IMG/VR virus record: IMGVR_UViG_3300046329_000019 | Span: 1-50,021 of that record | DNA: 50,021 bases | Reading direction: 5' to 3' (one strand) | DNA from: a virus | Shown: positions 1,335 to 7,149 of the stretch, one piece after another | How positions within the stretch are numbered: position 1 is the first letter of the stretch | Layout of the letters: every line of letters begins with the position of its first letter | Translations under genes and position numbers: made by a program | The notes under the pieces: model-generated | Told to the model about the DNA's origin: nothing | Seen by the model: the letters and a program-made list of their open reading frames with translations, nothing else | The model's database searches: none

Positions 1335-1502
1335 GCGATTATATTATTATATATATAAAGCTATATAGCTATCTTTAATATCTTAATATCTAATATCTCT
1401 TATATATAGATATATATTATATACACAATTAACTTTTGTCAAGCCCTTTTTATGTTAAATTCATGTAAATTTTTCATAACGATTATTGGCACCCCTACAT
1501 AT
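1335..1502. repeat. very AT-rich tract with palindrome and TAATATCT iterons
   Basis: The stretch 1340-1430 is almost purely A/T. It holds a perfect palindrome AGCTATATAGCT (1359-1370) and three copies of TAATATCT at 1376, 1384 and 1391, with the last two sharing one base. Such easily melted DNA with short iterons can be a replication origin, a regulator-binding site or a protein-bending element. I see no ORF in it. Which role applies cannot be told from sequence. Confidence 0.45.
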
Positions 1503-1510
1503 GCTATAAT
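1502..1510 (+). promoter_or_regulatory. extended -10 promoter driving the short hairpin RNA
   Basis: TGC-TATAAT (1502-1510) is one of the cleanest extended -10 elements in the window. The predicted start, 6-7 nt downstream at about 1516, coincides with the first base of a 16-bp hairpin, and no ORF follows before the terminator. Confidence 0.55.
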
Positions 1511-1515
1511 TTATT

Positions 1516-1580
1516 AAGACTAGTGCTCAGGTTTGTCTCTCATACCCACTACCCTGAGTGCTAGTCTTTTTGCATTTTTT
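1516..1580 (+). ncRNA. candidate small RNA: promoter-proximal hairpin ending in T-tract
   Basis: The arms AAGACTAGTGCTCAGG (1516-1531) and CCTGAGTGCTAGTCTT (1553-1568) pair over 16 positions, 14 Watson-Crick and 2 G-U. They enclose a 21-nt pyrimidine-rich loop and are followed by TTTT (1567-1570) and TTTTTT (1575-1580). An extended -10 promoter ends 5 nt before the stem. The transcript would be about 55-65 nt and consist only of the stem-loop and terminator tail. Alternatively it is a plain terminator for the gene at 942 with a coincidental promoter. The two G-U pairs mean the minus strand would form a weaker hairpin, favouring rightward RNA. Confidence 0.45.
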
Positions 1581-1582
1581 GA

Positions 1583-1591
1583 TGCTATAAT
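1583..1591 (+). promoter_or_regulatory. extended -10 promoter, first tail block
   Basis: TGC-TATAAT ends 9 nt before the ATG at 1601. It lies immediately after the T-tract of the hairpin unit, so it opens the first tail transcription unit. There is no Shine-Dalgarno site, so a leaderless mRNA is predicted. Confidence 0.55.
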
Positions 1592-1600
1592 TAGACTACT

Positions 1601-1987
1601 ATGACATCATGCTGCCCTGAAACCGAATTTGGAGCTGATCCGTTTAATCTTAAATGGACAGTTGTACGTGGAGACACATCTCCGCTTCGTGTTGAATTCC
1701 TTGAAACTGATGAGGTTACCCCATTTGATTTGACTGGATGGTCTTGGACTGCCAGTGCCTATGATTTTAAGGGCGACGTCACTGACGAACTAGAAGTAGT
1801 AGCTGGAGACGGATACGTCTTGATTACAATTCCAGCAGAAATAGCATCCTATTGGGGTACAGGGTACAACAAGAAGGTTGCAGAATTAGCATTTGATCTC
1901 CAGGGAACTAAGACTGACGGAACCGTATGGACACCAGTTATTGGCACTATCTCTGTACTTGGAGACGTTACAGGAGGTAGTCTATAA
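1601..1987 (+). CDS. BppU-N-like tail/baseplate protein
   Basis: This 128-aa protein has the sequence features [26 protein letters not shown] and a C-terminal [14 protein letters not shown]. This order (W-x-V-x-R-G-D, then D-L-T-G-W/Y) is typical of the beta-sandwich N-domain of siphovirus baseplate upper proteins and related structural proteins. Related proteins occur at 7428 and, with a weaker match, at the N-terminus of 3152. It opens the tail block behind a -10 box with no Shine-Dalgarno site. Its stop overlaps the next ATG (TAATG), suggesting coupled translation. The exact place in the virion is unknown. Confidence 0.6.
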
Positions 1988-3151: not shown

Positions 3152-3835
3152 ATGGCTTTTCCAGGAAAGTATGATTTTAATTATTATAAGGGAGATACCC
3201 TAGAGTTTAAGGTGTACCCAAAAACTACCACAGGACAGCCATTCAGTCTAGAGGGATATGCAGCAAGCTTTAACCTTGCAACCTCAAGAGGACTTCCTGA
3301 AAATCAACTAATCACTGCCTACTCTCAAATATCTCCAGACAAGACTCACATCGTTTGTGCAATCACGCCATCTGAAGGAAATGAGCTAATTCCTGGAACA
3401 ACTTATGTCTATGACATTGAGGTCAGAAACATGACAGCAACACCATACCCACTTGTATATACTTTGCTAAATGGTAACATTTCTATAACTGACCAAGTTA
3501 CTAATATCACTGAGCCTGTTGTTACTATTCCTGCTCCTGTAACAGCACTGAGCCTAACAGAAAATCCAGAAGGAACTCTAGTTGCAACCTGGACTGCACC
3601 AGCAACAGGATCAGCACCAACATCATATAAGGTTTATGGTAAGGCACCAGCTCTAACTGTAACTGAATATATTTTGATTGACACAGTTACTGCTCCAACA
3701 AACACTTTTACAGCAACAACGATTCTTGGATTCCCAGTACAGCCAGGCACTGAATACTTTGTCAAGGTTGCATCGGTTAATTCAGCTGGAGAGAACACAA
3801 CGGTTGTTGAAGACAGCGTAACTACGGCGGTATAA
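3152..3835 (+). CDS. tail protein with BppU-like and fibronectin type III domains
   Basis: This 227-aa protein has two parts. Residues 1-120 resemble the BppU-type N-domain (YKGDTLEFKVY, then LEGYAASFNLA). Residues about 128-225 form a fibronectin type III domain: PVTALSLTENPEGTLVATW, SYKVYGKA and YFVKVASVNSAGE. FN3 domains are common carbohydrate- or surface-contact modules in phage tails. It has its own promoter and a good Shine-Dalgarno site. One base separates its stop from the next ATG. Confidence 0.7.
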   Translation: MAFPGKYDFNYYKGDTLEFKVYPKTTTGQPFSLEGYAASFNLATSRGLPENQLITAYSQISPDKTHIVCAITPSEGNELIPGTTYVYDIEVRNMTATPYPLVYTLLNGNISITDQVTNITEPVVTIPAPVTALSLTENPEGTLVATWTAPATGSAPTSYKVYGKAPALTVTEYILIDTVTAPTNTFTATTILGFPVQPGTEYFVKVASVNSAGENTTVVEDSVTTAV

Positions 3836-5240: not shown

Positions 5241-6563
5241 ATGGCAACAGTATATAGTGCCAAAGATGCTAATGGTTTTCGATTAAGAATTGACTACACT
5301 GCAACCACCCCAGGAACAGGAAGCACAAGCACAAGTCCAAGATCAACAGTATCTGGAACAATGTATTTGGAATCAACCGTTGCTGGAGAATATTTCACTA
5401 GCTGGACGCTAACGACTTGGTTAAATATCTGGGGTAGCGGTTCAACAACAGACACATACCCAATTGATAAAAATCAACAGTTTAGCATTGCCAACCCATC
5501 GTCAGGAACCACTAGGGTTACTCTAGGAACTTTTACAAAAACAATCTTTCACGACACTACAGATGGAACAGGTTATTTTTATCTATATGCCTATGTAGAC
5601 GCTGATACTAATGCTGGATACGTTCCTGCAAATATTTACTATGGGCCAACTCAGTTTACGCTTCCAACACTTGCACCACCAGTTCCTCAATTCAGCTACT
5701 CTTATTGGGCAGCAGGTGGATCAAACACTCCAACTGGTGGAACTGTAAATTCAGGAACCACAATTACCGTTGGTAGCCCAGGAACAAAGACTGGATATAC
5801 TTTTAACTACTGGAATGCGTTTGACTATACAAACGCTGTTGAGGGAGCTTATCTTGGAAATGTTGGCTCTGGTGGGAGCTGGACTATAGATAGAGCAACT
5901 AGGTTTTTTGCATCTTGGTCAGTAATTCAGTATACTGCTACGTTCTACTCAGATGGTAATGTCAGCAGCACACAACAGGTTGATTATGGATCTTCCGCAA
6001 CAATGCCAAACGCATCAAAGTCTGGATACTCTTTATCTGGATGGTCATACGGAGGTACAGTATACCCTGTTGGCTCAAGCGGTCCAACACAGACTAGCAA
6101 CTTAAGCTTTACAGCAGTTTGGGTAGCTTTAACACCTGGATTCACTGATGAGACAATATCTGGAACTGTAGTCATTAATAAAAATGTTAATGAATTAGCT
6201 GATAGAAGCTTTTCTGCAACAAACGCAACTTCGTATTCTCTGTCTTATGCTGGAACTGGCCTTAACCCAACATCCTGGCTAACCATTGATAACTCTGGGA
6301 ATCTTTCTGGAACAACCAATGTTGCTGGCACCTATACATTTAGGGTAAATGCAACTGGACCAGGTGGAGCAGCATCTTCAAATATAGCAACTCTTGTAGT
6401 CAGATACCCTGGTAAGAGAATTAACTCTTCTTTTGCCCCAACGACATTCACAACGGCAAAAAGATACGCCCCAGGCGAATCAGGAGCCGATGGTCAAGGC
6501 TGGAAGCCTCTTAGCTTTATGAAACGCTGGAGCGGATCTGGTTGGGTAGACTTAACTAATTAG
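5241..6563 (+). CDS. multidomain adhesin with InlB B-repeat
   Basis: This is a 440-aa protein. Residues 1-150 form a beta-rich domain resembling the DUF859-type N-region of siphovirus structural proteins. Residues about 152-293 hold two Listeria-Bacteroides (InlB B) type repeats, marked by GYTFNYWNAF and the stretch ATFYSDGNVS...GYSLSGWSYGG. Residues about 300-388 form an Ig-like putative domain (WLTIDNSGNLSGTTNVAGTY). The C-terminus ends FMKRWSGSGWVDLTN, a K/R-W-x-G-x-x-W motif also seen at 15428. Likely role: surface adhesion. Its last 8 bases overlap the end of the convergent hydrolase gene. Confidence 0.65.
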   Translation: MATVYSAKDANGFRLRIDYTATTPGTGSTSTSPRSTVSGTMYLESTVAGEYFTSWTLTTWLNIWGSGSTTDTYPIDKNQQFSIANPSSGTTRVTLGTFTKTIFHDTTDGTGYFYLYAYVDADTNAGYVPANIYYGPTQFTLPTLAPPVPQFSYSYWAAGGSNTPTGGTVNSGTTITVGSPGTKTGYTFNYWNAFDYTNAVEGAYLGNVGSGGSWTIDRATRFFASWSVIQYTATFYSDGNVSSTQQVDYGSSATMPNASKSGYSLSGWSYGGTVYPVGSSGPTQTSNLSFTAVWVALTPGFTDETISGTVVINKNVNELADRSFSATNATSYSLSYAGTGLNPTSWLTIDNSGNLSGTTNVAGTYTFRVNATGPGGAASSNIATLVVRYPGKRINSSFAPTTFTTAKRYAPGESGADGQGWKPLSFMKRWSGSGWVDLTN

Positions 6564-7149
6564 TCTCTATTAGAGTTCTATAGCTAACCTTAGAATAGCT
6601 ACCACCAAATGAGTCAACATCTTCAATTCTAGTAACATGTCCACGCTTTGGAGCATGAATCATCTTACCATCACCAATATAGATTCCCACATGGTATGCC
6701 TGCTTAGATCCATTGTATTTAAAAACAACAATGTCACCTGGCTTTGGCGTTTTTGTTTTTGTGCCTGCATCATCCTGAGCAGAAGCACGGTGCTCTAGGC
6801 TAATACCCTGTTGTTCATAGAACCATAGCACAAGACCAGAACAGTCCCATCCGCTAGGAGTTACCCCAGAGAATACATACCATGTCTTATTTACGTAAGA
6901 GTTTAGCTTTTTTATTGTTTTATTCATTAGGGCAGTGTCAGCTTCTAATTTTCTAGCAGCTTCTGCCTCAGCCTCAAGCTGGGTCTGCTTGATTCTCTGA
7001 GCCTCAAGCATGTTAAGAATGCTTTGTCTTTGATAGACATTTGCACTATTTACATACTCTTCTTGGGTCATTTGCCCTACCGCAGGGGTAGAGCAGGTAG
7101 TCATGGTAAGTCCAAAGACCACCATTGCAGCAATTTTCTTGCGATTCAT
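6556..7149 (-). CDS. secreted NlpC/P60 cell-wall endopeptidase (lysin)
   Basis: This 197-aa protein has an N-terminal signal sequence (NRKK, then a hydrophobic stretch 6-18, possible cleavage after AVG25) and a coiled coil at about 38-82. The NlpC/P60 domain begins at about residue 83. The catalytic cysteine is in DCSGL (C103), with histidines in HVGIYIGDG (H153) and IHAP (H165). The family hydrolyses peptide cross-links of peptidoglycan. It is encoded against the tail genes and converges on 5241-6563 with an 8-bp overlap. AAGGAGGT stands 5 nt before ATG. A Sec signal on a phage lysin implies export without a classical holin, or a signal-arrest type release. It could also be a host-derived hydrolase. 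Confidence 0.88.
   Translation of the reverse strand: MNRKKIAAMVVFGLTMTTCSTPAVGQMTQEEYVNSANVYQRQSILNMLEAQRIKQTQLEAEAEAARKLEADTALMNKTIKKLNSYVNKTWYVFSGVTPSGWDCSGLVLWFYEQQGISLEHRASAQDDAGTKTKTPKPGDIVVFKYNGSKQAYHVGIYIGDGKMIHAPKRGHVTRIEDVDSFGGSYSKVSYRTLIETN

Follow-up and report, generated by a model that had tools for sequence, protein, structure and literature searches.

To our knowledge, few conserved structured phage RNAs have a promoter of their own. The pR'-tR' leader of phage lambda (6S RNA, Q) is about 194 nt long. In phage HK022, the put RNA forms short hairpins at the start of phage operons that act on RNA polymerase; there are two hairpins, and they must not terminate transcription. The skipping-rope RNA motif of Rfam is a long, phage-linked hairpin with a conserved terminal loop.

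In actinobacteria, the B11/6C small RNAs are chaperone-independent and use their C-rich loops to act on G-tracts within the 5' UTRs of mRNAs, according to the account given in PMC10470900, which cites Mai et al. 2019. In mycobacteria, no chaperone such as Hfq or ProQ has been identified (PMC10470900). Cluster A mycobacteriophages and Rhodococcus phage WC1 produce abundant intergenic non-coding RNAs of unknown function (PMC5712189, PMC10986025). The L5 and D29 RNAs arise from ~500 bp located behind Pleft, an early promoter, where a stem-loop terminator is not evident (PMC5712189). We found no reports of conserved structured RNAs with their own promoter from phages that infect uncultured actinobacteria of aquatic habitats. 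Here we describe a hairpin RNA from phages of actinobacteria that are uncultured and probably live in freshwater; it represents an undescribed family and probably serves as a small regulator directed at the host.

The promoter-hairpin unit in the window

The window, meaning the whole stretch of DNA analyzed, spans the 50,021 bases of a virus record (IMGVR_UViG_3300046329_000019). To the left of the unit lie a pair of small ORFs on the minus strand and, on the plus strand, a small gene (942-1334) whose product showed weak holin similarity in a similarity search, and to its right are tail, baseplate, portal, protease, capsid, and connector genes on the plus strand. The first tail or structural gene encodes a phrog_1084-like protein of 128 aa (1601-1987, plus strand, E 2.9e-8). 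A second phrog_1084 domain, ~26% identical to the 1601 protein, forms the first ~118 residues encoded at 3152-3835, where it is fused to a fibronectin type III domain.

The earlier note on this DNA had placed a promoter exactly at the base of a hairpin, and the layout was borne out. The promoter, P1, is an extended -10 of the form TGC-TATAAT (TGCTATAAT, 1502-1510, plus strand) that is conserved in relatives, and a start 6-8 nt past the -10 falls at 1516-1518, which is the stem base. The stem begins 5 nt after P1 and comprises 16 bp, including two G-U pairs, between a 5' arm at 1516-1531 (AAGACTAGTGCTCAGG) and a 3' arm at 1552-1567 (CCTGAGTGCTAGTCTT), both on the plus strand and both supported by covariation in the alignment of relatives. 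As had also been stated, it runs straight into a T-tract (1566-1570), a putative intrinsic terminator whose first two bases are also stem-paired. In the window, the G+C-rich stem is thus followed immediately by a run of T, as in an intrinsic terminator. The arms enclose a loop of 20 nt (1532-1551), the conserved part of which (GTCTCTCATACCCAC, 1535-1549) consists of a pyrimidine tract and a AUACCCAC core and is the likely effector. Based on the fold, the covariation, and the score of covariance model R1, we predict a small RNA of ~52-57 nt at 1516-1570 on the plus strand, made up of stem, loop, and U-tract.

No ORF was found between P1 and a second promoter, P2, in agreement with the claim that nothing is encoded there. 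P2 has the same extended -10, TGC-TATAAT (TGCTATAAT, 1583-1591, plus strand), and corresponds to the promoter for the tail genes that had been reported right after the hairpin. It lies 9 nt before the ATG at 1601, which would give the 1601 mRNA little or no leader.

The strand folds at 1514-1572 with -24.1 kcal/mol, compared to -9.4 for shuffles (z -6.5, 0/200). Model R1 scored the unit at 79.3 bits on the plus strand versus 17.3 bits on the minus strand, and the exact 14-mer of the loop occurs once within the window. A generic promoter and terminator scanner missed both P1 and the hairpin, since it accepts only promoters with a -35 box and loops of up to 8 nt; a scan based on consensus alone would overlook this promoter-hairpin unit.

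Sites matching TGNTATAAT were overrepresented in the window, with 13 found versus 2.6 expected (0/100 shuffles). Most of the 13 are positioned 6-9 nt before an ATG or ahead of a ribosome-binding site, and since they mostly precede gene starts, the extended -10 is the ordinary promoter type of this phage. Only the site at 1502 leads into a strong hairpin without a gene start. Among the late genes, TGN-TATAAT promoters without a -35 were observed at 1583, 7413, 8146, 14681, 34444, and other positions; many of these extended -10s are 6-9 nt before the ATG and correspond to leaderless mRNAs, and others are followed by a short leader that contains a ribosome-binding site. On the minus strand at 7354-7297, TGCTATAAT is followed by an immediate 7-bp hairpin, TTTTT, a ribosome-binding site, and a 25-codon ORF (MIKQSDNNVEILTNSQQQTILLLSH). 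This element is upstream of a minus-strand gene (6556-7149) and resembles an attenuator leader, with a fold z of only -1.8.

The DNA at 1335-1501 and, in relatives, the 220 nt before P1 form an AT-rich gap averaging 76% A+T. It contains ATAAC-type repeats, with [GT]ATAAC present 6.2 times per kb versus 0.8 downstream. Exact DnaA boxes occur in a few records, including three copies of TTATCCACA in locus L026. This gap is possibly an origin or a regulator site.

Conservation of the unit in related phages

Relatives of gene 1601 in IMG/VR carry an upstream hairpin with a different stem and the same loop. We searched IMG/VR with the loop and then with promoter plus loop. When the loop 15-mer alone was used as a probe, many of the listed matches lay in a recurring context (ccgagacct...TCTCTCATACCCACactggagggt) that did not fold as the unit, and matches were therefore kept only with a flanking stem. 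Numerous further viral contigs, among them L038-L044 and L061-L067, also contain the 15-mer GTCTCTCATACCCAC; there it lies within another conserved context (ccgagacctatggggaggttaaacacag...actggagggtggtgtggg) that does not form the stem of the unit, and it is possibly coding and unrelated to the RNA.

The searches and stem filter gave ~70 distinct units. Their stems are mostly 13-18 bp, their loops follow (U/A)GUCUCUCAUACCCAC(C), and their T-tracts vary in quality. The -10 is mostly 5-7 nt from the stem, and TGN-TA[TC][AC][AC]T is present at the right distance in 70/70 aligned units, with no conserved -35 box upstream of P1 across relatives. A second -10 and the start of a phrog_1084-like gene follow the unit in nearly all relatives, at ~46 to 87 nt from loop to gene start, and most have a short plus-strand ORF upstream. 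The upstream gene abuts P1 in L081 and L108, where the AT-rich gap is missing. In L027 and near-duplicate loci, the hairpin is directly followed by an ORF that carries its own ribosome-binding site, and P1 may thus read through there. A 209-codon ORF between hairpin and phrog_1084 gene (L027, L034, L091, L418) resembles a 2OG-Fe(II) oxygenase by eye. A search with the stem-arm 16-mer returned one chance match (L035) and one divergent true unit (L036), which has the loop UCUCUCUCAAAUCCCAC beside a very divergent, weakly phrog_1084-like gene.

The earlier note had proposed looking for stem covariation in relatives with the -10 included. On a MAFFT alignment built without structure, 89% of 1062 cells were paired and 15/16 pairs showed double changes (223 cells), with a covariation score of 0.63; shuffled controls scored 0.30 (0/500) and slid pairs no more than 0.16. 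These compensatory base changes exceed chance, as in a conserved structured RNA. The inner 13 pairs contained 102 G.U cells and 0 A.C cells, in a set gathered with a filter that accepts G-U pairs and so leans mildly toward a G.U excess. As an A.C cell is the G.U of the opposite strand, this pattern indicates that selection acts on the plus-strand RNA and not on DNA or a reverse transcript.

The loop (UCUCUCAUACCCAC) is nearly fixed across relatives and its AUACCCAC core is invariant in alignment A1, although the downstream proteins of RNA-bearing members aligned are only ~46-66% identical to that of the window. The little variation seen affects mainly the pyrimidine tract (C to U, small indels), and ACCCAC is fixed. 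Such a pattern would fit a 6-8 nt seed and a base-specific protein site equally. The earlier note missed the loop, which is the most conserved part and is not needed by a plain terminator.

A second set was anchored on the gene and gathered by neither stem nor loop. Alignment A2 of the 1601 protein identified at least 575 IMG/VR relatives, of which the best 80 were kept, and R1 detected the unit in 69/79 newly fetched loci among them. In the records from these best 80 with at least 130 nt upstream, the unit was present in 68/76: 65 contain a ATACCCAC loop no more than 140 nt away, two carry a variant loop (UCUCUUACCCACC), and in one the unit is displaced by an inserted ORF. All full-length units (68/68) carry TGN-TAT[AC][AC]T. 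In this alignment, which was fitted to the model, 91% of cells were paired and covariation was 0.61 versus 0.33 for shuffles (0/500). Column identity, calculated with one reverse-strand match among the rows, was ~96-100% for the loop core and most of the -10 and lower for the stem (mostly ~40-90%); the AUACCCAC core of the loop stood at about 98% per column.

Relatives that keep the stem and lack the promoter, which the earlier note had named as evidence against its reading, were absent among the 70 aligned and 68 gene-anchored units. Its further claim of a dedicated structured RNA and not a mere terminator agrees with the promoter being kept in all of these and with the loop being the most conserved part. 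The terminator itself holds for the T-tract in the window and not equally across the family, as the longest T-run is 3 or less in 20/70 units. Eight of the 76 gene-anchored relatives lack the unit. Two of these (L422 and L427) have an ordinary terminator hairpin in its place (upstream of 3001), without the promoter or loop motif, which suggests that a terminator is useful here and that the unit is something more; L410, L411, L413, and L420 have neither. On this comparative evidence, the promoter-hairpin unit is almost certainly an RNA element under selection, and the conserved, covarying, promoter-coupled family with its nearly invariant loop is real.

R1 found exactly one strong copy in each of 35/35 IMG/VR records, up to 118 kb in length. 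Since the unit is short and nearly always beside a gene family with at least 575 IMG/VR relatives, the RNA family is expected to be common. The capsid, portal, and protease are closest to those of Stanwilliamsviridae phages of Streptomyces (~38-57% identity), and WhiB was above the cut-off in 21/36 records and, among control genomes, was detected only in Corynebacterium. Together, these proteins indicate that the hosts are very probably Actinomycetota. The G+C content points to a probable freshwater setting.

In five cultured Streptomyces phages of the Stanwilliamsviridae, which have the closest capsid and portal, there was no convincing R1 copy (best E 0.64). INPHARED contained no relative of the 1601 protein, and blastn found no unit there. 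A loose promoter-plus-loop pattern gave only chance matches in bacterial and archaeal genomes, where R1 reached no better than E 0.16 (80 loci). Comparison of the window and 10 relatives to Rfam 15 (4227 families) with cmscan gave no match at the gathering threshold, and at E<=10 only unrelated animal lncRNAs matched 1400-1700 (E 3-5). A literature text search for the loop sequence returned no paper, and the literature on phage RNA structures did not turn up this hairpin family.

The proposed small RNA and rival explanations

We put the probability at about 0.5 that the unit is a phage small RNA gene of ~55 nt, the loop of which most likely acts in trans on the actinobacterial host. In the mechanism that we infer, RNA polymerase would start at the extended -10 of P1 with the first stem base as +1, the 13-18 bp hairpin would shield the 5' end of the RNA, and the polymerase would stop, in most lineages, at the U-tract directly behind the stem. 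The product would be a stable hairpin of ~55 nt whose ends are paired and whose fixed loop (pyrimidine tract and AUACCCAC) is exposed. A discrete short transcript of this kind is likely. The loop would be the working part, with a C-rich seed, (U)ACCCAC(C), able to pair with a host RNA at 5'-(G)GUGGGU(A); in the simplest model this is antisense pairing like that of the C-rich-loop actinobacterial small RNAs on G-tracts near ribosome-binding sites. Action in trans on a host partner is slightly favored. We also suggest, at a little under even odds, a family of minimal phage small RNAs that is widespread in phages of uncultured, probably freshwater, actinobacteria and acts on a single conserved component of the host, in the simplest case an RNA with a GGUGGGU site, in hosts expected to lack Hfq.

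Several observations support the small RNA. In both sets (70/70 and 68/68), the sequences place a promoter of its own with the start near the structure, the stem covaries, and the loop remains near-invariant despite diverging downstream proteins. It is present in 68/76 gene-anchored records, with one strong copy per record in 35/35. Changes in the loop fall in the pyrimidine part and ACCCAC is kept, which is the pattern of a short seed, and C-rich loops have a precedent (PMC10470900). Across 36 phage records, no second conserved site of complementarity was found, nor were targets clearly enriched in late transcripts (424 kb of downstream sequence), which suggests that the partner is probably not an mRNA of the phage itself. 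Among the possible uses that the earlier note had listed (sponge, antisense, decoy, packaging), antisense to the phage's own mRNA is therefore disfavored, and so is a cis-encoded antisense RNA, which would need long complementarity to a phage mRNA. Complementarity to E. coli rRNA reached at most 9 contiguous pairs including G-U, which we judged to be chance.

The constant place before one gene would also be expected of a cis element. Together with the poor U-tract in 20/70 units and the ORF right behind the hairpin in L027, both of which count against a small RNA, this linkage leaves a modest share of probability to a cis-acting attenuator or antitermination leader, in which the hairpin of the P1 transcript would stop or hold the polymerase until a phage factor or the loop switched it into the late operon, much as at lambda pR'-tR' with Q or with a put-type RNA of HK022. 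The unit always heads the plus-strand block of structural genes, and its RNA would form the exact 5' end of a read-through mRNA, in keeping with such a leader, as is the varying strength of the U-tract. However, P2 behind the hairpin already provides the first late gene with a leaderless start, more extended -10 promoters are located inside the late region, a hairpin with a U-tract would be an odd antitermination site, and eight gene-anchored relatives manage without the unit. Somewhat less probable is a loop bound by protein (a host RNA-binding protein, RNase, Rho/NusA, or a phage regulator), with the RNA as a decoy or sponge. Protein recognition would account for the loop variation as well as antisense pairing does, and the pyrimidine- and C-rich loop with small indels between tract and ACCCAC core, its fixed geometry on a stem of free sequence, and the lack of an RNA partner in the phage are consistent with it, but this evidence fits a host RNA target just as well and the protein partner is only hypothetical.

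A plain intrinsic terminator with a promoter that is incidental, serving to keep transcription from gene 942 out of P2 and the late genes, is improbable. The hairpin and T-tract are correctly placed for it and L422 and L427 carry an ordinary terminator hairpin at this place, but it would need neither the fixed promoter nor the near-invariant loop, and the T-tract, which a terminator requires, is less conserved. Even less probable is an element acting as DNA, with the loop as a double-stranded operator for a regulator of P1 and P2 or the hairpin as single-stranded DNA at a nearby origin. Its position between two promoters would suit this role, as would the AT-rich character of the DNA upstream, its ATAAC repeats, and the DnaA boxes of a few records. 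The inner stem, however, has G.U and never A.C, which indicates selection on the plus-strand RNA, the distance from loop to gene start is variable, and L081 and L108 have no AT-rich gap.

Comparison with known systems

A structural hint, a promoter set on a stem, has thus become a testable RNA family with a covariance model. Its invariant loop offers a direct handle on the host target, be it one complementary 8-9-mer or one bound protein.

Like lambda pR'-tR', the unit combines a promoter, a short RNA, and a terminator at the head of the late genes, but unlike that leader it has its hairpin at +1, a fixed loop, and a second promoter behind. Unlike HK022 put, it has one hairpin, usually with a U-tract. 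The skipping-rope motif was considered as well and gave no cmscan match at the gathering threshold or at E<=10. With the RNAs of cluster A phages and WC1 it shares an intergenic origin in actinophages, although no such covarying hairpin family is described there (PMC5712189, PMC10986025).

The unit does not belong to the 6C family, as it has one stem-loop, a longest C run of 3 (no C6 run), and no 6C match at E<=10. The 6C RNA is chromosomal and has two C-rich loops, whereas the phage RNA has one stem and one longer loop with a pyrimidine tract and AUACCCAC. Nevertheless, going by the account of 6C and B11 in PMC10470900, the phage RNA resembles them as a small hairpin RNA with a C-rich single-stranded loop in an actinobacterial setting.
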